Assembly: GCA_034509925.1 (NCBI GenBank) | Contig: CM067536.1 | Coordinates: forward strand, 6,089,501-6,153,500 | DNA from: Hirudinaria manillensis | Lineage: Eukaryota > Annelida > Clitellata > Hirudinida > Hirudinidae | Direction: 5' to 3' | DNA: 64,000 nucleotides | Part shown: one piece after another, positions 1 through 63,701 of the stretch | How positions within the stretch are numbered: the first letter of the stretch is position 1 | How the letters are laid out: every line of letters starts with the position of its first letter | Made by a program: the position numbers and the translations under genes | Notes under the pieces: generated by a model | The model's input: only the letters and a program-made list of their open reading frames with translations | Database searches by the model: none | Told to the model about the DNA's origin: nothing

Positions 1-150
1 TTAATTCCACCATCCTTCCAATTTTTCCTGTAAAAGTTATATTTTAATTGTATGACAAATGTATCAAGGCAAAACATTTAATGACTATGTTAATACTGAA
101 AAAATAAATATTTCACTTTTCGTTGGTGGATTCCAGGTTTGACATTATAT

Positions 151-182
151 CACCGCCGCAAAGTATCGACGCGGTCTATAAA
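151..182 (+). promoter_or_regulatory. Putative PSE and TATA box of U5 (representative)
   Basis: CACCGCCGCAAAGTATCGAC at 151-170 ends 35 bp before the U5 start. A related block, CACCACCGCTAAAGTCTATC, lies at the same distance from the U1 gene at 60696, which supports a shared proximal sequence element. TATAAA at 177-182 sits at about -29. Three alleles occur in the array: CCGCCGCAAAG, CCGCCACAAAG and CCGGCGCAAAG. In many animals PSE plus TATA marks Pol III snRNA promoters, yet U5 contains an internal TTTT, so polymerase choice is open. Assignment rests on position and on the U1/U5 match. Confidence 0.6.
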
Positions 183-205
183 TGGTCTGAAGAGCAGAAT
201 AACAG

Positions 206-323
206 CAGCTCTGGTTTCTCTTCAAAGAAACGCGCAAATCATTCGCCTTTTACTAAAGATTTCCGTGGAGAGGAACAACACTATGAGTGTTTGATGTATT
301 TCTTGCAGCCCTCTCTCGAGGGC
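206..323 (+). ncRNA. U5: U5 snRNA (copy 1)
   Basis: Core RNA of the U5 and U4/U6.U5 snRNPs; loop I aligns exons in the spliceosome. Visible: CTCTGGTTTCTCTTCAA as in animal U5; stem strands AAATCTTT and AAAGATTT around loop CGCCTTTTACT; GTGGAGAGGAACAA pairing back with GGTTTCTC; Sm-like AUUUCUUG at 298-305; terminal hairpin GCCCTC-TCTC-GAGGGC at 308-323. Start chosen by alignment to known U5 and by the fixed 35 bp from the PSE; ends are good to about 3 nt. Codes for all copies: PSE-G, PSE-A, PSE-GG = CCGCCG, CCGCCA, CCGGCG in the promoter; Q arm = GAACAACAC, H arm = GAACATCAC; spacer A or B as in the spacer entry. This copy: PSE-G, Q arm, spacer A, and AAATCATT in place of AAATCTTT, which puts an A-A mismatch below loop I. 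Confidence 0.93.
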
Positions 324-472
324 GGATAATAAATAATGATAATGAATTGATCTTACGTGTATATCCAATATCTCGTTTTTCTATATTACCGATACTCGCG
401 CCATCTGCCGATAGACGTTCAATAAAATTCTGGCAAAAATCTGAACCAAAGCAGCGTGCTATTTAGGCTTCT
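324..472 (+). other. U5 intergenic spacer (representative, spacer A)
   Basis: Between one U5 and the next promoter. It begins GGATAATAAATAATGATAAT, which could hold the 3'-end formation signal; no match to the vertebrate 3' box is obvious. About 60 bp downstream of U5 is a hypervariable patch with two main alleles: A (CGTTTTTCTATATTACCGAT) and B (CTTTTTGTAAATAACCGA). The rest, including CATCTGCCGATAGACGTTC and GGCAAAAATCTGAACC, is nearly constant. No ORF or other gene is seen. Confidence 0.7.
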
Positions 473-555
473 TTGGTGCATTCCGGGTTTGACATTATAT
501 CACCGGCGCAAAGTATCGACGCGGTCTATAAATGGTCTGAAGAGCAGAATAACAG

Positions 556-673
556 CAGCTCTGGTTTCTCTTCAAAGAAACGCGCAAATCTTTCGCCTTT
601 TACTAAAGATTTCCGTGGAGAGGAACATCACTATGAGTGTTTGATGTATTTCTTGCAGCCCTCTCTCGAGGGC
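556..673 (+). ncRNA. U5: U5 snRNA (copy 2)
   Basis: PSE-GG, H arm, spacer B. Canonical loop I stem. Confidence 0.93.
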
Positions 674-904
674 GGATAATAAATAATGATAATGAATTGA
701 TCTTACGTGTATATCCAATATCTCTTTTTGTAAATAACCGACACTCGCGCCATCTGCCGATAGACGTTCAATAAAATTCTGGCAAAAATCTGAACCAAAG
801 CAGCGTGCTATTTAGGCTTCTTTGGTGCATTCCGGGTTTGACATTATATCACCGCCGCAAAGTATCGACGCGGTCTATAAATGGTCTGAAGAGCAGAATA
901 ACAG

Positions 905-1022
905 CAGCTCTGGTTTCTCTTCAAAGAAACGCGCAAATCTTTCGCCTTTTACTAAAGATTTCCGTGGAGAGGAACATCACTATGAGTGTTTGATGTATTT
1001 CTTGCAGCCCTCTCTCGAGGGC
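905..1022 (+). ncRNA. U5: U5 snRNA (copy 3)
   Basis: PSE-G, H arm, spacer B. Confidence 0.93.
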
Positions 1023-1253
1023 GGATAATAAATAATGATAATGAATTGATCTTACGTGTATATCCAATATCTCTTTTTGTAAATAACCGACACTCGCGCC
1101 ATCTGCCGATAGACGTTCAATAAAATTCTGGCAAAAATCTGAACCAAAGCAGCGTGCTATTTAGGCTTCTTTGGTGCAATCCGGGTTTGACATTATATCA
1201 CCGCCGCAAAGTATCGACGCGGTCTATAAATGGTCTGAAGAGCAGAATAACAG

Positions 1254-1371
1254 CAGCTCTGGTTTCTCTTCAAAGAAACGCGCAAATCTTTCGCCTTTTA
1301 CTAAAGATTTCCGTGGAGAGGAACATCACTATGAGTGTTTGATGTATTTCTTGCAGCCCTCTCTCGAGGGC
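1254..1371 (+). ncRNA. U5: U5 snRNA (copy 4)
   Basis: PSE-G, H arm, spacer B. Distal promoter has GTGCAATCC instead of GTGCATTCC, a marker shared with copies 15 and 22. Last U5 before the protein gene at 1765. Confidence 0.93.
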
Positions 1372-1549
1372 GGATAATAAATAATGATAATGAATTGATC
1401 TTACGTGTATATCCAATATCTCTTTTTGTAAATAACCGACACTCGCGCCATCTGCCGATAGACGTTCAATAAAATTCTGGCAAAAATCTGAACCAAAGCA
1501 GCGTGCTATTTAGGCTTCTTTGCTGCATTCCGGGTTTGACATTATATCA

Positions 1550-1764
1550 TATATAATGAATTATTTATAAATAATTCTGTGGGATATAGGATCTTTTACA
1601 AAAATAATGAACAATAGGAATTAATTAAATTAAATGTTTTCAAATAATTCGGTTCGATTTATGATCTTTTTCAATGAAACAAATTATCGGGGACACGAAA
1701 ACTTTTTGAGGGAAGAACATCAAATCAAATAATTCAAAAATTCAAATTTAATTCTGACACAGAA
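1550..1764 (+). promoter_or_regulatory. Leader/promoter of A20/AN1 gene (representative)
   Basis: AT-rich stretch between the truncated U5 promoter and the ATG. A TATA-like TTTATAAATAA lies near 1564-1574. TTTAATTCTGACACAG just before AAATGG resembles a 3' splice site, so a 5' leader intron is possible but no matching donor is obvious. Nearly identical in all copies; the right family has an inserted TCAAAAAA segment near the TATA-like site. Confidence 0.45.
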
Positions 1765-2298
1765 ATGGACTCTGGCTCATCACAATTGTGCAGCAATGGA
1801 TGCGGTTTTTTTGGTTCACAAGATTTCAAAGGCATGTGTTCAAAATGCTTCAAAACTACGATGAAGAAGGAGGTGGAACAATCACATGTAAACAAGCCAA
1901 AAGAGGTGCAAATGAATGTATTAAATTCATTTCAGCCAAATGAATTTATGAATTTTGAAATAACCGATCCTAATGTTCAATCGGAGCCAAATCAAGTCAA
2001 GTTGGTGCCAATGCAAGTTAAAGAGAAGCCAATACAAGTCGGAGAAAAGCCAACGGTAGTCGCTGAGAAAAAATCGGAAGTGGCTGAGAAGCCGGAAAAG
2101 AAAAAAAGCAATAGATGCCATGTGTGCAAGAAGAAAGTTGGTCTGACTGCAATTGTTTGTCGATGCGGTGGAGTATACTGCGGTCTGCACCGCTACGTAG
2201 ATACTCATGGCTGCACTTTCGACTATAAGGCTGTCGAAAGGGAAAAACTACGCAAAATGAACCCATTGATTGAAGGCGAGAGAATCGAAAAACTATAA
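1765..2298 (+). CDS. A20/AN1 zinc-finger protein, ZFAND5/6-type (copy 1)
   Basis: Intronless 177-residue protein. An N-terminal A20 finger has C9, C13, C25 and C28 with the GFFG motif. A Lys/Pro/Glu/Val-rich linker of about residues 40-115 carries repeated QV-x-EKP-like motifs. The C-terminal AN1 finger has C118, C121, C132, C134, C139, H142, H148, C150 and the GLHRY signature, followed by the family's usual tail (KLRKMNPLIEGERIEKL). In animals, proteins of this architecture bind ubiquitin through A20 and act in proteasome regulation, NF-kB signalling and stress responses; that role is known for the family and only inferred here. The length is shorter than the roughly 210 residues of vertebrate ZFAND5/6, mostly in the linker. 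The ATG is the first in frame and starts just before the A20 finger. This copy: F56, E101, S115. Confidence 0.93.
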   Translation: MDSGSSQLCSNGCGFFGSQDFKGMCSKCFKTTMKKEVEQSHVNKPKEVQMNVLNSFQPNEFMNFEITDPNVQSEPNQVKLVPMQVKEKPIQVGEKPTVVAEKKSEVAEKPEKKKSNRCHVCKKKVGLTAIVCRCGGVYCGLHRYVDTHGCTFDYKAVEREKLRKMNPLIEGERIEKL

Positions 2299-2310
2299 AA
2301 CATCCTTTTT

Positions 2311-2445
2311 ATGCCAATATTGCTTTTTATGCTGAATTTATCGAATAAAGTAATTACAGAATCAAATAAAATATTAGCTTTATGTGGAGAACCTGGATTA
2401 TGTCGAAACACAAAATGTCCCTTTCCAGGAGTTTCAAATGATTAA
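2311..2445 (+). other. In-frame 44-codon small ORF with half A20 finger (representative)
   Basis: Begins with ATG four codons after the TAA of the A20/AN1 gene and in the same frame in most copies. It ends in ALCGEPGLCRNTKCPFPG followed by VSND and a stop. C-x4-C-x-F-x-G matches the first half of an A20 finger; the second Cys pair is missing. It may be the remnant of a longer C-terminus or of a second A20/AN1 gene cut by the block boundary. In some copies CCA becomes CTA (P to L), and an extra T at about 33850 and 47240 removes the shared frame. Whether it is translated is unknown. Confidence 0.35.
2344..2370 (+). terminator. Polyadenylation signals of A20/AN1 gene (representative)
   Basis: AATAAA at 2344-2349 lies 46 bp after the stop codon, and a second AATAAA at 2365-2370. 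Both are kept in the other copies, consistent with an mRNA gene rather than an snRNA-type transcript. Confidence 0.6.
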
Positions 2446-2659
2446 TAAATAATATTAATTCCACCATCCTTCCAATTTTTCCTGTAAAAGTTATATTTTA
2501 ATTGTATGACAAATGTATCAAGGCAAAACATTTAATGACTATGTTAATACTGAAAAAATAAATATTTCACTTTTCGTTGGTGGATTCCAGGTTTGACATT
2601 ATATCACCGCCGCAAAGTATCGACGCGGTCTATAAATGGTCTGAAGAGCAGAATAACAG

Positions 2660-2777
2660 CAGCTCTGGTTTCTCTTCAAAGAAACGCGCAAATCATTCGC
2701 CTTTTACTAAAGATTTCCGTGGAGAGGAACAACACTATGAGTGTTTGATGTATTTCTTGCAGCCCTCTCTCGAGGGC
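2660..2777 (+). ncRNA. U5: U5 snRNA (copy 5)
   Basis: First U5 after the protein gene. PSE-G, Q arm, spacer B, AAATCATT stem mismatch. Confidence 0.92.
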
Positions 2778-3008
2778 GGATAATAAATAATGATAATGAA
2801 TTGATCTTACGTGTATATCCAATATCTCTTTTTGTAAATAACCGACACTCGCGCCATCTGCCGATAGACGTTCAATAAAATTCTGGCAAAAATCTGAACC
2901 AAAGCAGCGTGCTATTTAGGCTTCTTTGGTGCATTCCGGGTTTGACATTATATCACCGCCGCAAAGTATCGACGCGGTCTATAAATGGTCTGAAGAGCAG
3001 AATAACAG

Positions 3009-3126
3009 CAGCTCTGGTTTCTCTTCAAAGAAACGCGCAAATCTTTCGCCTTTTACTAAAGATTTCCGTGGAGAGGAACATCACTATGAGTGTTTGATGT
3101 ATTTCTTGCAGCCCTCTCTCGAGGGC
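3009..3126 (+). ncRNA. U5: U5 snRNA (copy 6)
   Basis: PSE-G, H arm, spacer B. Confidence 0.93.
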
Positions 3127-3519
3127 GGATAATAAATAATGATAATGAATTGATCTTACGTGTATATCCAATATCTCTTTTTGTAAATAACCGACACTCG
3201 CGCCATCTGCCGATAGACGTTCAATAAAATTCTGGCAAAAATCTGAACCAAAGCAGCATGCTATTTAGGCTTCTTTGCTGCATTCCGGGTTTGACATTAT
3301 ATCATATATAATGAATTATTTATAAATAATTCTGTGGGATATAGGATCTTTTACAAAAATAATGAACAATAGGAATTAATTAAATTAAATGTTTTCAAAT
3401 AATTCGGTTCGATTTATGATCTTTTTCAATGAAACAAATTATCGGGGACACGAAAACTTTTTGAGGGAAGAACATCAAATCAAATAATTCAAAAATTCAA
3501 ATTTAATTCTGACACAGAA

Positions 3520-4053
3520 ATGGACTCTGGCTCATCACAATTGTGCAGCAATGGATGCGGTTTTTTTGGTTCACAAGATTTCAAAGGCATGTGTTCAAAA
3601 TGCTTCAAAACTACGATGAAGAAGGAGGTGGAACAATCACATGTAAACAAGCCAAAAGAGGTGCAAATGAATGTATTAAATTCATTTCAGCCAAATGAAT
3701 TTATGAATTTTGAAATAACCGATCCTAATGTTCAATCGGAGCCAAATCAAGTCAAGTTGGTGCCAATGCAAGTTAAAGAGAAGCCAATACAAGTCGGAGA
3801 AAAGCCAACGGTAGTCGCTAAGAAAAAATCGGAAGTGGCTGAGAAGCCGGAAAAGAAAAAAAGCAATAGATGCCATGTGTGCAAGAAGAAAGTTGGTCTG
3901 ACTGCAATTGTTTGTCGATGCGGTGGAGTATACTGCGGTCTGCACCGCTACGTAGATACTCATGGCTGCACTTTCGACTATAAGGCTGTCGAAAGGGAAA
4001 AACTACGCAAAATGAACCCATTGATTGAAGGCGAGAGAATCGAAAAACTATAA
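3520..4053 (+). CDS. A20/AN1 zinc-finger protein (copy 2)
   Basis: Intact, 177 residues. Differs from copy 1 by E101K in the linker; both fingers unchanged. Downstream CTTTCTAGG in place of CTTTCCAGG. Confidence 0.92.
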   Translation: MDSGSSQLCSNGCGFFGSQDFKGMCSKCFKTTMKKEVEQSHVNKPKEVQMNVLNSFQPNEFMNFEITDPNVQSEPNQVKLVPMQVKEKPIQVGEKPTVVAKKKSEVAEKPEKKKSNRCHVCKKKVGLTAIVCRCGGVYCGLHRYVDTHGCTFDYKAVEREKLRKMNPLIEGERIEKL

Positions 4054-4414
4054 AACATCCTTTTTATGCCAATATTGCTTTTTATGCTGAATTTATCGAA
4101 TAAAGTAATTACAGAATCAAATAAAATATTAGCTTTATGTGGAGAACCTGGATTATGTCGAAACACAAAATGTCCCTTTCTAGGAGTTTCAAATGATTAA
4201 TAAATAATATTAATTCCACCATCCTTCCAATTTTTCCTGTAAAAGTTGTATTTTAATTGTATCACAAATGTATCAAGGCAAAACATTTAATGACTATGTT
4301 AATACTGAAAAAATAAATATTTCACTTTTCGTTGGTGGATTCCAGGTTTGACATTATATCACCGCCACAAAGTATCGACGCGGTCTATAAATGGTCTGAA
4401 GAGCAGAATAACAG

Positions 4415-4532
4415 CAGCTCTGGTTTCTCTTCAAAGAAACGCGCAAATCTTTCGCCTTTTACTAAAGATTTCCGTGGAGAGGAACATCACTATGAGTGTT
4501 TGATGTATTTCTTGCAGCCCTCTCTCGAGGGC
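4415..4532 (+). ncRNA. U5: U5 snRNA (copy 7)
   Basis: First U5 after the protein gene. PSE-A, H arm, spacer B. Confidence 0.93.
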
Positions 4533-4763
4533 GGATAATAAATAATGATAATGAATTGATCTTACGTGTATATCCAATATCTCTTTTTGTAAATAACCGA
4601 CACTCGCGCCATCTGCCGATAGACGTTCAATAAAATTCTGGCAAAAATCTGAACCAAAGCAGCGTGCTATTTAGGCTTCTTTGGTGCATTCCGGGTTTGA
4701 CATTATATCACCGGCGCAAAGTATCGACGCGGTCTATAAATGGTCTGAAGAGCAGAATAACAG

Positions 4764-4881
4764 CAGCTCTGGTTTCTCTTCAAAGAAACGCGCAAATCTT
4801 TCGCCTTTTACTAAAGATTTCCGTGGAGAGGAACATCACTATGAGTGTTTGATGTATTTCTTGCAGCCCTCTCTCGAGGGC
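4764..4881 (+). ncRNA. U5: U5 snRNA (copy 8)
   Basis: PSE-GG, H arm, spacer B. Confidence 0.93.
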
Positions 4882-5274
4882 GGATAATAAATAATGATAA
4901 TGAATTGATCTTACGTGTATATCCAATATCTCTTTTTGTAAATAACCGACACTCGCGCCATCTGCCGATAGACGTTCAATAAAATTCTGGCAAAAATCTG
5001 AACCAAAGCAGCATGCTATTTAGGCTTCTTTGGTGCATTCCGGGTTTGACATTATATCATATATAATGAATTATTTATAAATAATTCTGTGGGATATAGG
5101 ATCTTTTACAAAAATAATGAACAATAGGAATTAATTAAATTAAATGTTTTCAAATAATTCGGTTCGATTTATGATCTTTTTCAATGAAACAAATTATCGG
5201 GGACACGAAAACTTTTTGAGGGAAGAACATCAAATCAAATAATTCAAAAATTCAAATTTAATTCTGACACAGAA

Positions 5275-22421: not shown

Positions 22422-22647
22422 GGATAATAAATAATGATAATGAATTGATCTTACGTGTATATCCAATATCTCGTTTTTCTATATTACCGATACTCGCGCC
22501 ATCTGCCGATAGACGTTCAATAAAATTCTGGCAAAAATCTGAACCAAATCAGCGTGCTATTTAGACTTCGTTGGTGGATTCCGGGTTTGACATTATATCA
22601 TATATAATGAATTATTCAAAAAATTTATAAATAATTCTGTGGGATAT

Positions 22648-25537
22648 TGATAGAAACTCTTGAACGAGCGTTCTGACAGGGATCTTCAGAGGAATGGCCC
22701 CTTCTACGAGTGTTTCGGCCCTGAATCCTGACACTCTCGGGGGCTGGGCCGCATCCGTTGATCAAGCGGATGTCCCTGCCAGATACTTTCTTCCGATAAC
22801 CCGACAACGACTTCCGACAAACAAACAATACTCGCACCGCCATTTTACGAAAAATTCCGCGAGGGCTCCGCCGTCCGAAAAACCGTCAAAGCAGCCATTA
22901 CGGCACTTCTTATATCACTTTGGTGTGAATGCCGTCCGGGGTGTCTCTTTCCTGGTCTTACACTGGCGTCCCTGTTTTGGTGGAGTGGACAGGGACGACT
23001 AGCCTCGCCGTGTCTGAGGCTTACCTTCGGTCCTTCGTTGTCCAGATCCAGTGAGAAGCCGATTCTGCGGACTCGGCTATTTTCTGGACGAACTGTTTAG
23101 TTTGCCTGTTTGAAAGGCCTATCTTCCTGAGAAAGGCGTATGTAGACTTGCCTACCAGCCCTCTCGCTCCGACTTCTATTGGTAACACACGGGCGCTATA
23201 CCCTTTCCCCTCTAAATCCATCCTCAGCTCTTCATAACGGTCGCTCTTCAGAGCATTGCTGACATCAATTCGGTCCTCCCATGGGACCGTCAGCTCTACG
23301 ATAATGACGGAATCGGTTGCTGCCGACGCCAGCACCAGATCAGGCCGCTTGCCGCTCTCTTGCAGCACCTGGTGGTAGTGCCTTTCTCCCTGCAGGTCAG
23401 CCGCAACTGTCCAGTCTTTGGCTGTGGACAGCAAGTCCCTCATTTGGGCCATGTTCCTTTTGCGGTGCTGTGTTGAGCCCTCTCTTAAGAAGTACATTCT
23501 TCTTGGTGCCGCGATTTCTCGGGCATTCGCCTGGGAGCATGCCGTCTTAGCCGCTTCGACCACGACCTGCAGGACTTGGTTATGTCGCCAAGTGTAACGA
23601 CCGTGAGCAAGGGCGTACGTGCATGATGAAAGCACGTGCCGGAGTGACTGCTCACCTCCGCAGAGCTCGCAGCTGGCGTCTTGAACCATCCCCCACTTCT
23701 GTAAGTTGGACCCGGAAGGGAGCACGTCGTAGACCGACCTTATGAGGAATGCCAAGCGGAGGGGAGACTTTTTCCAAATGTCTTTCCATGTGATGGATCT
23801 TTGGATGACGTCTTCCCAGGTTGTCCACTGTCCTTGCTGGCTTTGCTGCACTGCCAGCGCAATCCTTTCGGTCTCCATCTCTCGCCTTCTCTCTTGGATT
23901 ATCATGGCGGCTTTTGTCTGCACATTCGCTGTGGACCATCTTGGAAAATGGTTCCATCCGACTCCATGGCGGTCTACCTGCACGGGTCCTCTTTTCTCCT
24001 CGAAGGCTAGGACTGCCTCGGATTCCTCAATTTCTTCCTGGGCTCTGAATTTCCTTCCTGAGCGGAGTTGCGGCATGACGTCGCGGACCCTGCTGTCACT
24101 GGAGTTGTTGAGCGACCATTGAGTTCTGATTTTGCTAATTTTATATTCTTCAACGATGGATCTGAGGGGCAGCCTCAACCGTGTGCTTCTGCTGTACAGG
24201 GCGATCGACGATAGCGAAGGCGGCAACCCGAACCATTTCCTCGTACACCGATTTATTTTCCTTTCCATCTCTTCTACCGACTGCAGGCCTATTTCGTAGA
24301 TGGTCAATGGCCACAGCAGTCTTGGTAGCAGGACGAACTGCAGGAGCCAGACTTTGAATCTGCCCTGTAGCGGCGATTCTGCAATCGCTCTCAGACCGTC
24401 GGTCATCCTACTGACAGTGGCTGCCTCCTGGTTTTTGTCGCGGAGGGACACGTCAAAAACTCTTCCCAAGCTCTTTACTGGCTCTTCTGAGACCGTCGGA
24501 ATGCGTTGTCCTCCGGCGGTGAAGCACACGTCGCTGCGAACTCTCCCTCTTGTGAGAGAAAGACTCCGGGATTTTGCGGGCTTCAGAGCCATGCGACACC
24601 ATTGGAGTAGATCACTGAGCTTGTCAAGGGCTCTTTGGACAATCTGCTGCCTGTTTAGAACGATGGTGGTGTCGTCCATGAAAACCTTTACTGAAGGCAT
24701 AAACACCCCTTTACCCAAACGCATCTCGGGGATCTCAGCTCCTACTGCATTTAGAACGACTTGAATGGCAAGCACAAACAGCGATGGAGAAATGGCACAT
24801 CCCATGGCTATGCCGATCTGCAGAGGGATCCAACACGTGGTGCAATCTTTTGTGGAAAAACGCATCACGAAACCGTTGAAGTATTCCTTGAGTACCTCAA
24901 TCACCGTTCCAGGAACATGGTGGATCTCTAACGTCTTCCAGAGGAGTTGATGGGGCACCGATCCATAGGCGTTGGCCAGGTCGAGCCACACGACGTGTAG
25001 ACTGAGTTGGTTCCTTTTTGCGTTCTGGATCGCCTCCCATATCATTGCGGTGTGCTCAATGCACCCCGGCACACCTGGGATGCCTCCCTTTTGAACTGCT
25101 GTGTCGATGTACTTGTTTGTTGTCATGAACGTAGTCAGCCTTGCCGCTAGACATGAGAAATAGATTTTCCCTTCGACATTCAACAACGAAATAGGCCTGA
25201 ACTGGTTTATGTGCTTAGATTCCTTTTCTTTCGGAATGTACACACCTTCCGCTACTTTCCATTCGTTGTCGACTGCGGCATTGGCCCAGGTGGAAACTAT
25301 TATTGTGTGGAGCAGCTTGAGCGTTCTTGGGCATCTCTTGTAAAGCAGATATGGGATCCCGTTGGGCCCGGGCGCGGAGCGGTTTCTTGCCTTCTTCACG
25401 ACTTCCTTAACCTCCTCGATCGATGGAGCTGCCTCTTGAAATGGATGATCCGGGAAAGGTGCTTCCAGAATCTCAGTTCTCTGAGGAAGCGGTGTGCTGC
25501 GAAGAGCATCGGTGTACGTCTTGGTGAGGTGTGCTGA
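22648..25537 (-). mobile_element. 5'-truncated RLE-type non-LTR retrotransposon (NeSL/R2/Hero-like group)
   Basis: An insertion of 2,890 bp splits the leader of an A20/AN1 copy. GATAT at 22643-22647 is repeated at 25538-25542, and removing the element restores GGGATATAGGATC, so the target duplication is 5 bp. The element reads right to left. Its 5' part is missing at 25537, where the ORF is still open; its 3' end at 22648 has no poly-A tail and follows a 373 bp 3' UTR (22648-23020) in which I see no gene. It is visibly richer in G+C than the array. 5' truncation is typical of target-primed reverse transcription. Confidence 0.9.
23021..25537 (-). CDS. Retrotransposon reverse transcriptase-endonuclease (5' partial)
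   Basis: Open from the truncation point to its stop, 838 codons. The first 46 codons precede a GTG that would otherwise look like a start. Numbering from that GTG: SAPGPNGIP (8-16) and FRPISLLN (68-75) are RT finger motifs; VVWLDLANAYGSVPH (136-150) is motif A with catalytic D140; GCAISPSL (200-207) is motif B; FMDD (240-243) is motif C. A zinc knuckle C577, C580, H588, C593 is followed by a PD-(D/E)XK-type endonuclease: RPD at 685-687, ELTVPWE at 702-708, K718 and Y722, PIEVGARG near 741-748. This order, RT then CCHC then C-terminal endonuclease, defines RLE non-LTR elements, many of which insert into rRNA, spliced-leader or snRNA repeats. The N-terminal DNA-binding fingers are lost, so the copy is not autonomous. 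No internal stop is seen, so the insertion is probably young. Confidence 0.9.
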   Translation of the reverse strand, partial: SAHLTKTYTDALRSTPLPQRTEILEAPFPDHPFQEAAPSIEEVKEVVKKARNRSAPGPNGIPYLLYKRCPRTLKLLHTIIVSTWANAAVDNEWKVAEGVYIPKEKESKHINQFRPISLLNVEGKIYFSCLAARLTTFMTTNKYIDTAVQKGGIPGVPGCIEHTAMIWEAIQNAKRNQLSLHVVWLDLANAYGSVPHQLLWKTLEIHHVPGTVIEVLKEYFNGFVMRFSTKDCTTCWIPLQIGIAMGCAISPSLFVLAIQVVLNAVGAEIPEMRLGKGVFMPSVKVFMDDTTIVLNRQQIVQRALDKLSDLLQWCRMALKPAKSRSLSLTRGRVRSDVCFTAGGQRIPTVSEEPVKSLGRVFDVSLRDKNQEAATVSRMTDGLRAIAESPLQGRFKVWLLQFVLLPRLLWPLTIYEIGLQSVEEMERKINRCTRKWFGLPPSLSSIALYSRSTRLRLPLRSIVEEYKISKIRTQWSLNNSSDSRVRDVMPQLRSGRKFRAQEEIEESEAVLAFEEKRGPVQVDRHGVGWNHFPRWSTANVQTKAAMIIQERRREMETERIALAVQQSQQGQWTTWEDVIQRSITWKDIWKKSPLRLAFLIRSVYDVLPSGSNLQKWGMVQDASCELCGGEQSLRHVLSSCTYALAHGRYTWRHNQVLQVVVEAAKTACSQANAREIAAPRRMYFLREGSTQHRKRNMAQMRDLLSTAKDWTVAADLQGERHYHQVLQESGKRPDLVLASAATDSVIIVELTVPWEDRIDVSNALKSDRYEELRMDLEGKGYSARVLPIEVGARGLVGKSTYAFLRKIGLSNRQTKQFVQKIAESAESASHWIWTTKDRR

Positions 25538-25719
25538 GATATAGGATCTTCTACAAAAATAATGAACAATAGGAATTAATTAAATTAAATGTTTTCAAAT
25601 AATTCGGTTCGATTTATGATCTTTTTCAATGAAACAAATTATCGGGGACACGAAAAATTTTTGAGGGAAGAACATCAAATCAAGTAATTCAAAAATTCAA
25701 GTTTAATTCTGACACAGAA

Positions 25720-25935
25720 ATGGACTCTGGCTCATCACAATTGTGCAGCAATGGATGCGGTTTTTTTGGTTCACAAGATTTCAAAGGCATGTGTTCAAAA
25801 TGCTTCAAAACTACGATGAAGAAGGAGGTGGAACAATCACATGTAAACAAGCCAAAAGAGGTGCAAATGAATGTATTAAATTCATTTCAGACAAATGAAT
25901 TTATGAATTTTGAAATAACCGATCCTAAAAGTTAA
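25720..25935 (+). pseudogene. Truncated A20/AN1 gene, A20 finger only (copy 12)
   Basis: Matches the other copies up to residue 69, then jumps to the 3' flank: GATCCTAA runs straight into AAGTTAAATTTT, removing the rest of the linker, the whole AN1 finger and the polyadenylation signals. The break shares TAA on both sides, as in a microhomology deletion. A 71-residue ORF with C9, C13, C25 and C28 remains, with P58T. Its leader is cut off from the upstream promoter region by the retrotransposon. Confidence 0.9.
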
Positions 25936-26100
25936 ATTTTAATTGTATGACAAATGTATCAAGGCAAAACATTTAATGACTATGTTAATACTGAAAAAAT
26001 AAATATTTCACTTTTCGTTGGTGGATTCCAGGTTTGACATTATATCACCGCCGCAAAGTATCGACGCGGTCTATAAATGGTCTGAAGAGCAGAATAACAG

Positions 26101-43888: not shown

Positions 43889-44420
43889 ATGGACTCTGGC
43901 TCATCACAATTGTGCAGCAATGGATGCGGTTTTTTTGGTTCACAAGATTTCAAAGGCATGTGTTCAAAATGCTTCAAAACTACGATGAAGAAGGAGGTGG
44001 AACAATCACATGTAAACAAGCCAAAAGAGGTGCAAATGAATGTATTAAATTCACTTCAGCCAAATGAATTATGAATTTTGAAATAACCGATCCCAATGTT
44101 CAATCGGAGCCAAATCAAGTCAAGTTGGTGCCAATGCAAGTTAAAGAGAAGCCAATACAAGTCGGAGAAAAGCCAACGGTAGTCGCTGAGAAAAAATCGG
44201 AAGTGGCTGAGAAGCCGGAAAAGAAAAAAGCAATAGATGCCATGTGTGCAAGAAGAAAGTTGGTCTGACTGCAATTGTTTGTCGATGCGGTGGAGTATAC
44301 TGCGGTCTGCACCGCTACGTAGATACTCATGGCTGCACTTTCGACTATAAGGCTGTCGAAAGGGAAAAACTACGCAAAATGAACCCATTGATTGAAGGCG
44401 AGAGAATCGAAAAACTATAA
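43889..44420 (+). pseudogene. A20/AN1 gene with two 1-nt deletions (copy 21)
   Basis: Otherwise identical to its neighbours. One T is missing in AATGAATTATG (near 44070) and one A in AAGAAAAAAGC (near 44228), so the frame breaks after the A20 finger and ends before the AN1 finger. Both losses are in homopolymer runs, so sequencing error is as likely as real decay. Confidence 0.8.
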
Positions 44421-46701: not shown

Positions 46702-47234
46702 ATGGACTCTGGCTCATCACAATTGTGCAGCAATGGATGCGGTTTTTTGGTTCACAAGATTTCAAAGGCATGTGTTCAAAATGCTTCAAAACTACGATGA
46801 AGAAGGAGGTGGAACAATCACATGTAAACAAGCCAAAAGAGGTGCAAATGAATGTATTAAATTCACTTCAGCCAAATGAATTTATGAATTTTGAAATAAC
46901 CGATCCCAATGTTCAATCGGAGCCAAATCAAGTCAAGTTGGTGCCAATGCAAGTTAAAGAGAAGCCAATACAAGTCGGAGAAAAGCCAACGGTAGTCGCT
47001 GAGAAAAAATCGGAAGTGGCTGAGAAGCCGGAAAAGAAAAAAAGAAATAGATGCCATGTGTGCAAGAAGAAAGTTGGTCTGACTGCAATTGTTTGTCGAT
47101 GCGGTGGAGTATACTGCGGTCTGCACCGCTACGTAGATACTCATGGCTGCACTTTCGACTATAAGGCTGTCGAAAGGGAAAAACTACGCAAAATGAACCC
47201 ATTGATTGAAGGCGAGAGAATCGAAAAACTATAA
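46702..47234 (+). pseudogene. A20/AN1 gene with 1-nt deletion (copy 22)
   Basis: GCGGTTTTTTGG has six T where intact copies have seven, breaking the frame inside the A20 finger after C13. The rest of the coding sequence (L56, R115, complete AN1 finger) is intact in the other frame. Homopolymer error is possible. Confidence 0.8.
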
Positions 47235-49515: not shown

Positions 49516-50049
49516 ATGGACTCTGGCTCATCACAATTGTGCAGCAATGGATGCGGTTTTTTTTGGTTCACAAGATTTCAAAGGCATGTGTTCAAAATGC
49601 TTCAAAACTACGATGAAGAAGGAGGTGGAACAATCACATGTAAACAAGCCAAAAGAGGTGCAAATGAATGTATTAAATTCACTTCAGCCAAATGAATTTA
49701 TGAATTTTGAAATAACCGATCCCAATGTTCAATCGGAGCCAAATCAAGTCAAGTTGGTGCCAATGCAAGTTAAAGAGAAGCCAATACAAGTCGGAGAAAA
49801 GCCAACGGTAGTCGCTGAGAAAAAATCGGAAGTGGCTGAGAAGCCGGAAAAGAAAAAAGAAATAGATGCCATGTGTGCAAGAAGAAAGTTGGTCTGACTG
49901 CAATTGTTTGTCGATGCGGTGGAGTATACTGCGGTCTGCACCGCTACGTAGATACTCATGGCTGCACTTTCGACTATAAGGCTGTCGAAAGGGAAAAACT
50001 ACGCAAAATGAACCCATTGATTGAAGGCGAGAGAATCGAAAAACTATAA
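49516..50049 (+). pseudogene. A20/AN1 gene with compensating indels (copy 23)
   Basis: Eight T in GCGGTTTTTTTTGG (one extra) and one A fewer in AAGAAAAAAGAAATAG. The net length is unchanged, but everything from the A20 finger to residue 114 is out of frame. R115-type sequence. Both changes are in homopolymers. Confidence 0.8.
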
Positions 50050-57868: not shown

Positions 57869-58099
57869 GGATAATAAATAATGATAATGAATTGATCTTA
57901 CGTGTATATCCAATATCTCTTTTTGTAAATAACCGATACTCGCGCCATCTGCCGATAGACGTTCAATAAAATTCTGGCAAAAATCTGAACCAAATCAGCG
58001 TGCTATTTAGACTTCGTTGGTGGATTCCGGGTTTGACATTATATCACCGCCGCAAAGTATCGACGCGGTCTATAAATGGTCTGAAGAGCAGAATAACAG

Positions 58100-58217
58100 C
58101 AGCTCTGGTTTCTCTTCAAAGAAACGCGCAAATCTTTCGCCTTTTACTAAAGATTTCCGTGGAGAGGAACAACACTATGAGTGTTTGATGTATTTCTTGC
58201 AGCCCTCTCTCGAGGGC
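58100..58217 (+). ncRNA. U5: U5 snRNA (copy 90)
   Basis: PSE-G, Q arm, spacer B. Confidence 0.93.
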
Positions 58218-58448
58218 GGATAATAAATAATGATAATGAATTGATCTTACGTGTATATCCAATATCTCTTTTTGTAAATAACCGATACTCGCGCCATCTG
58301 CCGATAGACGTTCAATAAAATTCTGGCAAAAATCTGAACCAAATCAGCGTGCTATTTAGACTTCGTTGGTGGATTCCGGGTTTGACATTATATCACCGCC
58401 GCAAAGTATCGACGCGGTCTATAAATGGTCTGAAGAGCAGAATAACAG

Positions 58449-58566
58449 CAGCTCTGGTTTCTCTTCAAAGAAACGCGCAAATCTTTCGCCTTTTACTAAA
58501 GATTTCCGTGGAGAGGAACAACACTATGAGTGTTTGATGTATTTCTTGCAGCCCTCTCTCGAGGGC
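58449..58566 (+). ncRNA. U5: U5 snRNA (copy 91)
   Basis: PSE-G, Q arm, spacer A. Confidence 0.93.
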
Positions 58567-58798
58567 GGATAATAAGTAATGATAATGAATTGATCTTACG
58601 TGTATATCCAATATCTCGTTTTTCTATATTACCGATATTCGCGCCATCTGCCGATAGACGTTCAATAAAATTCTGGCAAAAATCTGAACCAAATCAGCGT
58701 GCTATTTAGACTTCGTTGGTGGATTCCGGGTTTGACATTATATCACCGCCACAAAGTATCGACGCGGTCTATAAATGGTCTGAAGAGCAGAATAACAG

Positions 58799-58916
58799 CA
58801 GCTCTGGTTTCTCTTCAAAGAAACGCGCAAATCTTTCGCCTTTTACTAAAGATTTCCGTGGAGAGGAACAACACTATGAGTGTTTGATGTATTTCTTGCA
58901 GCCCTCTCTCGAGGGC
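58799..58916 (+). ncRNA. U5: U5 snRNA (copy 92)
   Basis: PSE-A, Q arm, spacer A. Confidence 0.93.
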
Positions 58917-59148
58917 GGATAATAAGTAATGATAATGAATTGATCTTACGTGTATATCCAATATCTCGTTTTTCTATATTACCGATATTCGCGCCATCTG
59001 CCGATAGACGTTCAATAAAATTCTGGCAAAAATCTGAACCAAATCAGCGTGCTATTTAGACTTCGTTGGTGGATTCCGGGTTTGACATTATATCACCGCC
59101 GCAAAGTATCGACGCGGTCTATAAATGGTCTGAAGAGCAGAATAACAG

Positions 59149-59266
59149 CAGCTCTGGTTTCTCTTCAAAGAAACGCGCAAATCTTTCGCCTTTTACTAAA
59201 GATTTCCGTGGAGAGGAACAACACTATGAGTGTTTGATGTATTTCTTGCAGCCCTCTCTCGAGGGC
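59149..59266 (+). ncRNA. U5: U5 snRNA (copy 93)
   Basis: PSE-G, Q arm, spacer A. Confidence 0.93.
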
Positions 59267-59498
59267 GGATAATAAGTAATGATAATGAATTGATCTTACG
59301 TGTATATCCAATATCTCGTTTTTCTATATTACCGATATTCGCGCCATCTGCCGATAGACGTTCAATAAAATTCTGGCAAAAATCTGAACCAAATCAGCGT
59401 GCTATTTAGACTTCGTTGGTGGATTCCGGGTTTGACATTATATCACCGCCACAAAGTATCGACGCGGTCTATAAATGGTCTGAAGAGCAGAATAACAG

Positions 59499-59616
59499 CA
59501 GCTCTGGTTTCTCCTCAAAGAAACGCGCAAATCTTTCGCCTTTTACTAAAGATTTCCGTGGAGAGGAACAACACTATGAGTGTTTGATGTATTTCTTGCA
59601 GCCCTCTCTCGAGGGC
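59499..59616 (+). ncRNA. U5: U5 snRNA (copy 94)
   Basis: PSE-A, Q arm, spacer B; TTTCTCCTCAAAG for TTTCTCTTCAAAG. Confidence 0.92.
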
Positions 59617-59847
59617 GGATAATAAATAATGATAATGAATTGATCTTACGTGTATATCCAATATCTCTTTTTGTAAATAACCGATACTCGCGCCATCTGC
59701 CGATAGACGTTCAATAAAATTCTGGCAAAAATCTGAACCAAATCAGCGTGCTATTTAGACTTCGTTGGTGGATTCCGGGTTTGACATTATATCACCGCCG
59801 CAAAGTATCGACGCGGTCTATAAATGGTCTGAAGAGCAGAATAACAG

Positions 59848-59965
59848 CAGCTCTGGTTTCTCTTCAAAGAAACGCGCAAATCTTTCGCCTTTTACTAAAG
59901 ATTTCCGTGGAGAGGAACAACACTATGAGTGTTTGATGTATTTCTTGCAGCCCTCTCTCGAGGGC
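59848..59965 (+). ncRNA. U5: U5 snRNA (copy 95)
   Basis: PSE-G, Q arm, spacer B. Last complete copy of the long run. Confidence 0.93.
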
Positions 59966-60196
59966 GGATAATAAATAATGATAATGAATTGATCTTACGT
60001 GTATATCCAATATCTCTTTTTGTAAATAACCGATACTCGCGCCATCTGCCGATAGACGTTCAATAAAATTCTGGCAAAAATCTGAACCAAATCAGCGTGC
60101 TATTTAGACTTCGTTGGTGGATTCCGGGTTTGACATTATATCACCGCCGCAAAGTATCGACGCGGTCTATAAATGGTCTGAAGAGCAGAATAACAG

Positions 60197-60262
60197 CAGC
60201 TCTGGTTTCTCTTCAAAGATCTTTCGCCTTTTACTAAAGATTTCCGTGGAGAGGAACAACAC
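60197..60262 (+). pseudogene. Truncated U5 snRNA (copy 96)
   Basis: PSE-G promoter and 5' end are normal. Ten bases (AAACGCGCAA) are missing before the loop I stem, and the copy stops at GAGGAACAACAC, losing the Sm site and terminal hairpin. The U1 island starts directly after. Confidence 0.9.
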
Positions 60263-60267
60263 AAAGA

Positions 60268-60399
60268 TTTTTAATAAACTGATGGTTACAATTTATCTAA
60301 TTCGTAAGCATTAACTTTTTACAAACTTATGCTTCATCGCAATTACTTTTCTTTTTGTCACCAGGGTGTATCGAGGGATTGAACAAATACCAAACTAAC
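60268..60399 (+). repeat. Direct repeat flanking U1 island, left copy
   Basis: Begins TTTTTAATAAACTGATGG and ends CCAAACTAACC, the first bases of the degenerate U1. Matches 60884-61006 with few substitutions and a 9-nt indel (AAACTTATGCTTCATCGC against AAACATCGC). Probably the upstream region of a U1 repeat unit. Confidence 0.85.
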
Positions 60400-60530
60400 C
60401 CGTCGCAGGTGGAGAAGTGACCGTCTCAATCATGGCACATGTGGAAGGTCGAAACCTGCGATTACACCAGAGGTGGGTAACTCGGGCGAATGATTTTTGT
60501 ACTTGTGGGATTTGCGTTCGAGCATTTCCG
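60392..60530 (+). pseudogene. Degenerate U1 snRNA copy
   Basis: Aligns with the U1 gene at 60696. The first 21 nt match except four substitutions, so ACTTACCTG (5' splice-site pairing) is ACTAACCCG here. About 25 nt of stem-loops 1-2 are missing. The 3' half is clear: CCTGCGATTACACCAG, GGTGGGTAACTCGGGCG, then a good Sm site in ATGATTTTTGTAC, then a terminal hairpin with GCGTTCGAGC. Loss of the U1-70K and U1A binding parts argues for a pseudogene; a divergent U1-like RNA cannot be excluded because the Sm site and hairpin survive. Confidence 0.75.
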
Positions 60531-60639
60531 TTCTTTAAAAATAAAACCAACTCTTACCGTTTAATGTTTGAGAATTCGATACAACGCCAAAAAATAATTT
60601 CCGTGGGAACGCTCATTCCAAAGAACATCCGTTTTTAGA

Positions 60640-60673
60640 CACCACCGCTAAAGTCTATCACATATCATAAACA
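60640..60673 (+). promoter_or_regulatory. Putative PSE and TATA-like site of U1
   Basis: CACCACCGCTAAAGTCTATC begins at -56 from the U1 start and resembles the U5 element at the same distance. CATAAACA at 60666-60673 (-30 to -23) is in the position of the U5 TATAAA but weaker. Confidence 0.55.
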
Positions 60674-60695
60674 AATCCCTGTGCCGTAGTTTATC

Positions 60696-60859
60696 AAACT
60701 TACCTGGCGTAGGTGGTAGCCGTGATCAAAAAGGCGGCACGCCCAGTTGGAGGCCGATCCATTGCACCCGGGGTTGGCTGAAGGCTGCGATTACCCCAAA
60801 TGCGGGTAACTCGGGCGCATAATTTGTGTGTTTTGGGAGTTGCGTTCGCGCATTCCCGA
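60696..60859 (+). ncRNA. U1: U1 snRNA
   Basis: A 164-nt match to animal U1, the RNA of the snRNP that recognises 5' splice sites. AAACTTACCTG at the 5' end keeps the pairing sequence ACUUACCUG. Stem-loop 1 is closed by GCCG/CGGC with loop GATCAAAAA (human has GAUCACGAA), the U1-70K site. Stem-loop 2 has ATTGCACCC, the U1A site. Stem-loop 3 is formed around TACCCCAAATGCGGGTA. The Sm site is in GCATAATTTGTGTG, and terminal stem-loop 4 is GGGAGTTGCG-TTCG-CGCATTCCC. The start is set by the conserved 5' end, the end by the hairpin. It appears intact, and is the only full U1 in the window. TTTTTT follows immediately at 60860. Confidence 0.94.
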
Positions 60860-60883
60860 TTTTTTAAATAAAGTTAACCAATC

Positions 60884-61006
60884 TTTTTAATAAACTGATG
60901 GTTACAATTTATCTAATTCGTCCGCATTAACTTTTTACAAACATCGCAATTACTTTTCTTTTTGTCACCAGGGTTTATCGAGGGATTGAACAAATACCAA
61001 ACTAAC
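60884..61006 (+). repeat. Direct repeat flanking U1 island, right copy
   Basis: Second copy of the 60268-60399 segment. It ends in CCAAACTAAC, eight bases into the degenerate U1, and is joined directly to GGGTTTGACATTATATCA, the start of an A20/AN1 block. Confidence 0.85.
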
Positions 61007-61248
61007 GGGTTTGACATTATATCATATATAATGAATTATTCAAAAAATTTATAAATAATTCTGTGGGATATAGGATCTTCTACAAAAATAATGAACAATA
61101 GGAATTAATTAAATTAAATGTTTTCAAATAATTCGGTTCGATTTATGATCTTTTTCAATGAAACAAATTATCGGGGACACGAAAAATTTTTGAGGGAAGA
61201 ACATCAAATCAAGTAATTTAAAAATTCAAGTTTAATTCTGACACAGAA

Positions 61249-61782
61249 ATGGACTCTGGCTCATCACAATTGTGCAGCAATGGATGCGGTTTTTTTGGTT
61301 CACAAGATTTCAAAGGCATGTGTTCAAAATGCTTCAAAACTACGATGAAGAAGGAGGTGGAACAATCACATGTAAACAAGCCAAAAGAGGTGCAAATGAA
61401 TGTATTAAATTCACTTCAGCCAAATGAATTTATGAATTTTGAAATAACCGATCCCAATGTTCAATCGGAGCCAAATCAAGTCAAGTTGGTGCCAATGCAA
61501 GTTAAAGAGAAGCCAATACAAGTCGGAGAAAAGCCAACGGTAGTCGCTGAGAAAAAATCGGAAGTGGCTGAGAAGCCGGAAAAGAAAAAAAGCAATAGAT
61601 GCCATGTGTGCAAGAAGAAAGTTGGTCTGACTGCAATTGTTTGTCGATGCGGTGGAGTATACTGCGGTCTGCACCGCTACGTAGATACTCATGGCTGCAC
61701 TTTCGACTATAAGGCTGTCGAAAGGGAAAAACTACGCAAAATGAACCCATTGATTGAAGGCGAGAGAATCGAAAAACTATAA
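61249..61782 (+). CDS. A20/AN1 zinc-finger protein (copy 24)
   Basis: Intact; L56, E101, S115. The leader has AAGTAATTTAAAAATTCAAG, like the truncated copy at 25720. There is no U5 directly upstream; the U1 island precedes it. Confidence 0.92.
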   Translation: MDSGSSQLCSNGCGFFGSQDFKGMCSKCFKTTMKKEVEQSHVNKPKEVQMNVLNSLQPNEFMNFEITDPNVQSEPNQVKLVPMQVKEKPIQVGEKPTVVAEKKSEVAEKPEKKKSNRCHVCKKKVGLTAIVCRCGGVYCGLHRYVDTHGCTFDYKAVEREKLRKMNPLIEGERIEKL

Positions 61783-62143
61783 AACATCCTTTTTATGCCA
61801 ATATTGCTTTTTATGCTGAATTTATCGAATAAAGTAATTACAGAATCAAATAAAATATTAGCTTTATGTGGAGAACCTGGATTATGTCGAAACACAAAAT
61901 GTCCCTTTCCAGGAGTTTCAAATGATTAATAAATAATATTAATTCCACCATCCTTCCAATTTTTCCTGTAAAAGTTATATTTTAATTGTATGACAAATGT
62001 ATCAAGGCAAAACATTTAATGACTATGTTAATACTGAAAAAATAAATATTTCACTTTTCGTTGGTGGATTCTAGGTTTGACATTATTTCACCGCCGCAAA
62101 GTATCGACGCGGTCTATAAATGGTCTGAAGAGCAGAATAACAG

Positions 62144-62261
62144 CAGCTCTGGTTTCTCTTCAAAGAAACGCGCAAATCTTTCGCCTTTTACTAAAGATTT
62201 CCGTGGAGAGGAACAACACTATGAGTGTTTGATGTATTTCTTGCAGCCCTCTCTCGAGGGC
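62144..62261 (+). ncRNA. U5: U5 snRNA (copy 97)
   Basis: Q arm, spacer A. Distal promoter slightly altered (GATTCTAGG, ATTATTTCACCG); PSE-G. Confidence 0.92.
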
Positions 62262-62665
62262 GGATAATAAATAATGATAATGAATTGATCTTACGTGTAT
62301 ATCCAATATCTCGTTTTTCTATATTACCGATACTCGCGCCATCTGCCGATAGACGTTCAATAAAATTCTGGCAAAAATCTGAACCAAAGCAGCGTGCTAT
62401 TTAGACTTCGTTGGTGGATTCCGGGTTTGACATTATATCATATATAATGAATTATTCAAAAAATTTATAAATAATTCTGTGGGATATAGGATCTTCTACA
62501 AAAATAATGAACAATAGGAATTAATTAAATTAAATGTTTTCAAATAATTCGGTTCGATTTATGATCTTTTTCAATGAAACAAATTATCGGGTACACGAAA
62601 CAATTTTTGAGGGAAGAACATCAAATCAAATAATTCAAAAATTCAAATTTAATTCTGACACAGAA

Positions 62666-63199
62666 ATGGACTCTGGCTCATCACAATTGTGCAGCAATGG
62701 ATGCGGTTTTTTTGGTTCACAAGATTTCAAAGGCATGTGTTCAAAATGCTTCAAAACTACGATGAAGAAGGAGGTGGAACAATCACATGTAAACAAACCA
62801 AAAGAGGTGCAAATGAATGTATTAAATTCACTTCAGCCAAATGAATTTATGAATTTTGAAATAACCGATCCCAATGTTCAATCGGAGCCAAATCAAGTCA
62901 AGTTGGTGCCAATGCAAGTTAAAGAGAAGCCAATACAAGTCGGAGAAAAGCCAACGGTAGTCGCTGAGAAAAAATCGGAAGTGGCTGAGAAGCCGGAAAA
63001 GAAAAAAAGCAATAGATGCCATGTGTGCAAGAAGAAAGTTGGTCTGACTGCAATTGTTTGTCGATGCGGTGGAGTATACTGCGGTCTGCACCGCTACGTA
63101 GATACTCATGGCTGCACTTTCGACTATAAGGCTGTCGAAAGGGAAAAACTACGCAAAATGAACCCATTGATTGAAGGCGAGAGAATCGAAAAACTATAA
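62666..63199 (+). CDS. A20/AN1 zinc-finger protein (copy 25)
   Basis: Intact; L56, E101, S115, with a silent AAG to AAA at Lys44. A leader change (GGGTACACGAAACAATTTTTG) opens a longer upstream frame from 62534, but that stretch is leader sequence in all other copies, so the usual ATG is kept as the start. Confidence 0.92.
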   Translation: MDSGSSQLCSNGCGFFGSQDFKGMCSKCFKTTMKKEVEQSHVNKPKEVQMNVLNSLQPNEFMNFEITDPNVQSEPNQVKLVPMQVKEKPIQVGEKPTVVAEKKSEVAEKPEKKKSNRCHVCKKKVGLTAIVCRCGGVYCGLHRYVDTHGCTFDYKAVEREKLRKMNPLIEGERIEKL

Positions 63200-63560
63200 A
63201 ACATCCTTTTTATGCCAATATTGCTTTTTATGCTGAATTTATCGAATAAAGTAATTACAGAATCAAATAAAATATTAGCTTTATGTGGAGAACCTGGATT
63301 ATGTCGAAACACAAAATGTCCCTTTCTAGGAGTTTCAAATGATTAATAAATAATATTGATTCCACCATCCTTCCAATTTTTCCTGTAAAAGTTATATTTT
63401 AATTGTATGACAAATGTATCAAGGCAAAACATTTAATGACTATGTTAATACTGAAAAAATAAATATTTCACTTTTCGTTGGTGGATTCCAGGTTTGACAT
63501 TATATCACCGCCGCAAAGTATCGACGCGGTCTATAAATGGTCTGAAGAGCAGAATAACGG

Positions 63561-63591
63561 CAGCTCTGGTTTCTCTTCAAAGAAACGCGCA
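63561..63591 (+). pseudogene. Truncated U5 snRNA (copy 98)
   Basis: Promoter (PSE-G, TATAAA) and the first 31 nt remain, with AACGGCAGCTC. Cut at AAACGCGCA before loop I, then joined to a scrap of spacer (ATCAGCGTGCTACTTAG). Marks the right edge of the array. Confidence 0.88.
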
Positions 63592-63617
63592 TCAACAAAA
63601 TCAGCGTGCTACTTAGT

Positions 63618-63695: not shown

Positions 63696-63701
63696 GACGG
63701 A

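Follow-up and report, generated by a model that had tools for sequence, protein, structure and literature searches.

Tandemly Arrayed, Probably Functional U5 snRNA Genes Interspersed with an A20/AN1 Zinc-Finger Gene in the Leech Hirudinaria manillensis

Organization and Extent of the U5 Array

The window analyzed here is a 64,000-nucleotide stretch of the Hirudinaria manillensis genome (assembly GCA_034509925.1, contig CM067536.1, positions 6,089,501 to 6,153,500), most of which is occupied by part of a U5 snRNA gene array (120..63591, + strand). BLAST with the 119-nt U5 RNA found 96 full-length and 2 truncated copies in the window, all on a single strand, exactly the count given by the first-pass annotation. 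The U5 unit is 349–350 bp long; in the unit taken as reference (470..818, +, 349 bp), the U5 gene lies at 556..674 (+) and matches Rfam RF00020 with 87.5 bits. When the window was searched with all Rfam families (cmscan), 97 U5, 1 U1 and 1 tRNA matches were obtained, every one on the + strand; the U5 matches scored 63.3 to 89.4 bits (cut-off 40; E ≤ 3.1e-8), and the U1 match, to RF00003, scored 129.8 bits (cut-off 69.5). One truncated copy, in the unit at 60111..60262 (+), retains an Rfam U5 match (60197-60306, 63.3 bits), and the other, 31 nt starting at 63561 and without an Rfam match, belongs to the final unit of the array (63475..63591, +), which is cut after 117 bp.

The whole array spans about 91 kb of a single chromosome (C11), and its 144 full-length U5 genes all lie head-to-tail on the + strand. 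It extends 27 kb leftward past the window, to C11:6062296 (approximately window position −27204), and a scan of eight flank loci gave 48 further U5 Rfam matches. The span first assigned to the array, 1 to 63591, thus has the correct right edge, where a different tandem array, with a 490-bp repeat and tRNA matches, starts (63592..64000, +), but not the correct left edge. This neighboring array holds 52 tRNA copies (cmscan) and continues for about 25 kb past the window; the three of its tRNAs given to ARAGORN were all tRNA-Ser(CGA). Likewise, the earlier description of a dense U5 array agrees with the U5 counts, but the window is U5 only in part, as 25 zinc-finger blocks of about 1.06 kb each and one U1 block, neither mentioned previously, lie between the U5 runs.

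Repeats are the usual place where assemblies fail, and the array might in principle be a shorter one that was inflated, or a set of misjoined repeats. Against this, the array is free of N, and 20 variable columns resolve 45 unit haplotypes. An artefact is also unlikely because the longest exact repeat found within the array is 3578 bp (3.6 kb), as compared with HiFi reads averaging 18.73 kb for this species, according to a passage of PMC10671345; we give this explanation a very small probability.

Interspersed Zinc-Finger Gene and Other Inserts

The protein gene carried between the U5 runs encodes an A20/AN1 zinc-finger protein (Pfam zf-A20, 38.6 bits, cut-off 21.6; zf-AN1, 37 bits, cut-off 27.9), which we take to be stress- or ubiquitin-linked, as for ZFAND and stress-associated proteins. 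It is present in 35 copies across the array, 30 with an intact frame and 5 broken, so that U5 genes outnumber it about four to one. An example block of 1057 bp lies between U5 units at 1517..2573 (+), and contains the first of the 21 intact frames in the window, an ORF of 177 aa at 1765..2298 (+). Further intact frames on the + strand start at 3520, 5275, 7030, 8436, 10890, 12645, 14049, 18247, 19653, 21059, 26972, 29079, 30495, 33311, 35778, 38243, 39659, 42474 and 61249, and the last starts at 62666 (+), within a 221-aa frame from 62534. Frameshifted copies lie at 43889..44420 (+), 46702-47234 and 49516-50049. One of the 25 blocks is split by a non-LTR retrotransposon (22568..26014, no strand assigned), with five bases repeated at both junctions, and retains just a truncated zinc-finger frame (25720-25928); the insert includes a 701-aa frame on the opposite strand (23021..25126, −) with RVT_1 and zf-RVT domains. 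A retrotransposon that targets U5 was considered and rejected, as the insert sits in a zinc-finger block and the other blocks of the array are uninterrupted.

Selection may have acted on the zinc-finger gene, with U5 riding along, a view that is compatible with a functional U5 array. The intact frame in 30 of the 35 copies is in its favor, albeit weakly, because young copies remain intact without selection, and so is the dN/dS against the neighboring paralog, which is 0.33 overall, 0.25 for residues 1-62 and 0.16 for residues 113-177. However, five copies are broken, U5 is four times commoner, and U5 runs of 27 and 28 units are free of the zinc-finger gene. C11 was the only chromosome on which close copies of this protein turned up; therefore, the U1, U2 and U4 arrays described below are without it. 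Taken as the driving force, selection on this gene is improbable.

The remaining insert, a 0.74-kb block at 60263..61005 (+), is derived from another snRNA array, since 738 bp of it are 97.8% identical to the U1 array on chromosome C8, corresponding to about 1.2 units of that array. Within the block lies a U1 snRNA gene that has the arrayed isoform (60696..60860, +; RF00003, 129.8 bits).

U5 RNA and Promoter

The full-length arrayed U5 RNAs fall into 14 sequence types among 144 copies. By exact string match, the string of the invariant loop I, GCCUUUUAC, is present in 143/144 and the Sm string AUUUCUUG, one base off the usual Sm form, in 144/144. Upstream of the RNA, the arrayed units have a proximal-element-like sequence with CACC near −56, and a TATA-like box at −29. 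In the reference unit, the PSE-like core TATCACCG is found at 498..505 (+), with its CACC at −55 relative to the Rfam start, and the TATA-like TATAAATG at 527..534 (+), that is, at −29.

CACC occurs at −52 to −62 in 20/20 leech snRNA promoters, whereas 5000 base shuffles averaged 0.77 such promoters and never gave more than 5, the motif having been first spotted by eye in these same promoters and counted afterwards, and the set consisting of genes or units already retrieved rather than every snRNA gene. In its initial form, with A or T preceding CACC, the motif was present in 22 of 23 rows and missed U2. The distance from CACC to TATA is 22-28 in all 18 of the U1, U2, U4 and U5 promoters and wider, 32, in both U6 promoters, the TATA-like matches being weak (3-4 of 7) in U2, dispersed U4 and several U1 genes. 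The putative U5 promoter thus has its element and spacing in common with those leech U1, U2 and U4 genes that were examined. RNA polymerase III was judged an unlikely transcriber of the arrayed U5 genes, given a spacing unlike that of U6 and the internal TTTT that U5 contains. An anonymous satellite was rejected on the Rfam matches and the promoter, and the initial proposal of a U5 gene carrying a promoter of its own in each repeat is supported by these data and by the variation described next.

Variation and Homogenization among Units

Columns with any variation make up 18/179 of the RNA plus promoter and 64/179 of the remainder of the unit (p = 7e-9), the latter figure being somewhat inflated because gap columns were scored as variation. 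The difference is significant at thresholds of 1, 2, 5 and 20 minor copies, but not at three or more (9/179 vs. 18/179, p = 0.11). Mean pairwise identity of units is 97.9%; neighbors share 98.8%, and identity declines to about 96.6% across the array, a mark of local exchange between units. Since RNA and promoter are less variable than the spacer, the array looks functional and in concerted evolution. Runaway amplification alone, one of the two causes first suggested, does not explain why RNA and promoter vary less, or why every full-length copy has the Sm string and all but one the loop I string.

Other snRNA Arrays and Dispersed Isoforms

U1, U2 and U4 are arrayed in this genome as well. U1 forms an array of at least 51 units on chromosome C8, the U2 array includes 46/46 scored sites and lies on a chromosome other than that of U5, and the U4 array holds 94 of 100 U4 sites among the matches listed; the U1, U2, U4 and U5 arrays occupy four chromosomes. 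Two neighboring U6 genes, 187 bp apart, adjoin a run of N, and a U6 array is possible. Dispersed U5 genes also exist, and in comparisons of a few genes each, the arrayed isoforms of U1, U4 and U5 differ from the dispersed genes. One stem-I pair, 1 of 33 predicted pairs, is changed on both sides, being U-A in the array and C-G in the dispersed form. The idea that the U5 array is a peculiarity showing a dosage demand for U5 is thus not supported, because U1, U2 and U4 are tandem too and the arrayed isoforms differ from the dispersed ones.

These observations also bear on a satellite-like, selfish expansion, by which a few U5 genes near a zinc-finger gene would have been amplified through unequal exchange or circle reinsertion, most of them being silent and their number drifting. 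Unrelated genes, a retrotransposon, a foreign U1 block and exact multi-kb repeats all speak of active exchange, the adjoining tandem array is non-snRNA, and the dispersed U5 genes could be enough for the cell. Nevertheless, the spacer is more variable than the RNA and promoter, and the zinc-finger gene is broken in 5/35 copies while the Sm string has been lost in 0/144 full-length U5 genes; moreover, arrayed U1, U2 and U4 are unexpected under random expansion. We therefore regard selfish expansion as rather unlikely.

Comparison with Known Systems

Tandem snRNA arrays include the early-embryo U1 repeats of sea urchin and Xenopus, and RNU2 of human and other primates. The leech array resembles U1 and U2 arrays, as described in passages of PMC4291461 and as generally known, in its head-to-tail units, each with a promoter and an snRNA, and in its concerted evolution; as in the sea urchin and Xenopus U1 arrays, the arrayed isoform is unlike the other genes. 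It differs from them in that it consists of U5 genes in units of just 349 bp, with a protein gene in between, and in that the genome arrays U4 as well. In fish, linked U2-U5 tandem arrays likewise contain U5, with PSE and 3' box, but the repeat holds both genes (PMC3464664), whereas the leech U5 unit is without U2, which is arrayed on a different chromosome. Euglena has several U5 genes, as the leech has, among its linked U3-U5 genes; in the passages available of PMC2784804, a repeated array is not demonstrated, and the authors state that PCR seems to exclude closely linked U3-U5 units. In grasshoppers, an analysis of reads seeded with known genes counts U1, U2, U5 and U6 as multigene families in tandem (PMC7754599), and the passages available contain no assembled U5 array; the leech array, in contrast, is assembled. 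In the open literature, as represented by titles, beginnings of abstracts and passages, no leech snRNA array or array of U5 alone was found, although prior publication is possible, and two leech genome papers do not contain the string "snRNA" in their main text.

Interpretation and Significance

A functional tandem U5 snRNA gene array on one H. manillensis chromosome, providing arrayed isoforms for high demand, is the explanation that we consider likely with good confidence. RNA polymerase II would transcribe every U5 unit from that unit's own promoter, unequal exchange and conversion would hold the U5 copies alike, and the same exchange would spread the A20/AN1 block, acquired once, among the U5 runs. 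Sea urchin, Xenopus, mouse and Drosophila all switch snRNA isoforms during development, according to PMC4291461. By analogy with sea urchin and frog, the best reading is that of a distinct arrayed isoform set, perhaps of the oocyte or embryo; the arrayed isoforms would give high output under high demand, for which the oocyte or the early embryo is the likeliest setting, and the dispersed isoforms would serve the remaining stages. It is a doubtful, more far-reaching conjecture that two parallel Sm-class sets, arrayed (U1, U2, U4, U5) and dispersed, give rise to two stage-specific spliceosomes, with A20/AN1 recruited for co-timed production.

The locus offers a protein gene carried, mostly intact, within an snRNA array, and a block transferred from one snRNA array into another. 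The arrayed and dispersed isoforms are separable in RNA reads by their differing bases. Thus, with U5, U1, U2 and U4 arrays in a compact HiFi genome, it becomes testable in a spiralian what leads animals to keep their snRNA genes in arrays, a long-standing question.

Extent and Layout of the U5 Array

The U5 snRNA genes of the window are all carried on one strand: cmscan of the whole window against Rfam returned 97 U5 matches plus a single U1 and a single tRNA, every one of them on the + strand, and BLAST with the 119-nt RNA as query recovered 96 full-length U5 copies and 2 truncated ones, in units of 349–350 bp, exactly the count made in the first-pass annotation. The array is larger than was noted there: the sequence on both sides of the window (C11:6089501–6153500) shows that it extends leftward to about C11:6062296, a point marked by a degenerate U5 fragment and by a paralog of the zinc-finger gene. 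Over its whole length it holds 144 full-length U5 genes, and a scan of eight flank loci with Rfam found 48 U5 matches, one of them cut by the end of a locus. Genome-wide (148.4 Mb, 23 contigs), the U5 loop-region pattern, with 2 mismatches allowed, matched 146 times on one strand and 3 times on the other, the latter three being dispersed genes among the matches listed (two on contig C13, one on C21). The earlier reading of the repeat as U5 with its own promoter stands, and is incomplete on the content of the array, which includes zinc-finger and U1 blocks, and on its genomic context of U1, U2 and U4 arrays.

The U5 runs, of 1 to 28 units, are parted by 35 zinc-finger blocks of ~1.06 kb each, 25 of them in the window; this number excludes the outside paralog, with which the pieces number 36. 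In each block the opening 33 bp are the same as the start of a U5 unit, from which the block diverges inside the CACC of the proximal-element-like promoter element (PSE), and the U5 unit after each block is complete. The encoded protein has 177 aa with A20 and AN1 zinc fingers, and its frame is intact in 30 of the 35 array copies (21 in the window), frameshifted in 4 (3 in the window) and truncated in one, which lies in the block struck by a non-LTR retrotransposon (window 22568–26014; open 701-aa frame, with a five-base repeat flanking the insert). All other blocks of the array are uninterrupted. A simple Nei–Gojobori count against the paralog that lies next to the array, on an alignment reaching one residue beyond the paralog’s stop, gave dN/dS values of 0.33 overall, 0.25 for residues 1–62, 1.08 for the linker and 0.16 for residues 113–177. 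Close zinc-finger copies were found in the genome on C11 only, with three further partial matches on C12, C13 and C3 (42–49% identical).

Near the right end of the array, a 743-bp block is 97.8% identical over 738 bp to a stretch of roughly 1.2 units from the U1 array on chromosome C8, and an entire U1 gene of the arrayed type lies within it. The U5 array gives way directly to a 490-bp tandem array (window 63592–64000) that runs for ~25 kb with 52 tRNA matches by cmscan, 1 in the window and 51 in loci L019–L021, one cut by a locus end; ARAGORN called tRNA-Ser(CGA) in 3/3 copies put to it. Frames judged by eye to be reverse-transcriptase-like lie at its far end (C11:6178690–6181012). To the left of the U5 array are four cysteine-rich frames that resemble one another and, judged by eye, look ShK-like (C11:5990983, 5998390, 6004637 and 6013400; loci L009–L011), and in the genome a hirudin-family match scored 33.9 bits against a Pfam cut-off of 25, with a partial domain and one internal stop.

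Integrity of the U5 RNA and Its Promoter

Among the 144 full-length copies, the exact loop string is present in 143 and the Sm string in all 144. A CACC near -56 was first spotted by eye in the leech snRNA promoters and counted afterwards: demanding A or T before it gave 22 of 23 promoter rows, U2 being missed, and CACC alone at -52 to -62 was present in 20/20 arrayed and dispersed promoters of U1, U2, U4, U5 and U6 (the 23 rows minus three near-duplicates), compared with a mean of 0.77/20 and a maximum of 5/20 in 5000 base shuffles. CACC and the best TATA-like string lie 22–28 apart in all 18 promoters of U1, U2, U4 and U5 and 32 apart in the two of U6; the TATA-like match is weak for U2, dispersed U4 and several U1. 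Pol III genes of Drosophila have a wider promoter spacing, so the promoter of the arrayed U5 is laid out in the Pol II manner.

Columns with any change made up 18/179 of the RNA and promoter versus 64/179 elsewhere (p = 7e-9), a tally in which gap columns were scored as change and the spacer is somewhat inflated; at minor-copy thresholds of 2, 3, 5 and 20, the same contrast gave p values of 0.011, 0.11, 0.010 and 0.006. Diversity in the RNA was 0.0078, or 0.0036 when site 73 is left out; the promoter had 0.0089 and the rest of the unit 0.034.

Evolution and Assembly of the Array

Neighbouring U5 units are 98.8% identical, and identity falls to ~96.6% at 120–139 units apart; exact repeats, the longest of 3578 bp, recur along the array at shifts of at least 1402 bp, many of which equal sums of U5 units and blocks. 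This decay, together with the exact shifted repeats, is the mark of unequal exchange and conversion, by which the zinc-finger block and the two U5 subfamilies, with T or A at site 73, would have been carried along.

As a side observation, COX1 occurs inside a chromosome at C9:3026446–3027786 (locus L064), scoring equal to COX1 on contig C23, among frames taken by eye for ND3, ND2, COX2 and COX3; the region is either a large mitochondrial insertion into the nuclear genome or a misjoin made in scaffolding. The gene order around mitochondrial COX1 looks annelid. The published HiFi assembly of Hirudinaria manillensis is described as 148.59 Mb in 22 scaffolds, with 13 chromosomes that range in size from 14.76 to 8.30 Mb, and with a mitochondrial genome; its reads average 18.73 kb (PMC10671345), a length at which the U5 array should be resolvable.

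Arrayed and Dispersed snRNA Genes

All 46 scored U2 matches, a lower bound, lie in one C2 array, mostly at 1204-bp steps, and U4 gave 106 pattern matches, of which 100 were listed and 94 of these form a single C5 array with 365–373 bp steps. U1 gave 151 pattern matches genome-wide; among the matches listed, 51 form an array of ~607-bp units (C8:561042–591559), in which a diverged second U1-like piece, ~280 bp downstream, recurs at the same step, and others are dispersed on C1, C5, C6, C9, C12 and elsewhere on C8. Within L061, a locus of this array, cmscan reported no diverged piece at cut-off. Three U6 genes were scored, including a pair on C8 spaced 187 bp apart; an SRP RNA gene (L056 1645–1941, minus strand, 249.6 bits) follows the second gene of this pair, 38 bp past its end.

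The arrayed U1, U4 and U5 RNAs are unlike the dispersed genes compared with them (4 U1, 2 U4, 3 U5) at many bases, 3' stem-loop included. In U5, a two-sided change affects 1 of 33 predicted pairs, a stem pair that is U-A in the array versus C-G in the dispersed genes. Given the U1, U2 and U4 arrays and these isoform differences, a U5-specific cause, such as the dosage demand first proposed, is not needed; the simpler description is a tendency to array Sm-class snRNAs, with isoforms divided between array and dispersed genes. Developmental switching of snRNA isoforms is described for sea urchin, Xenopus, mouse and fly (PMC4291461), and by analogy we adopt it as a model under which the arrayed and dispersed leech isoforms may be switched. 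The tandem snRNA array is a known kind of locus, of which the U5 array is a new form: U5 is without another snRNA in its unit, the unit is very short and a protein gene is interspersed, all within a genome where U1, U2 and U4 are arrayed too.
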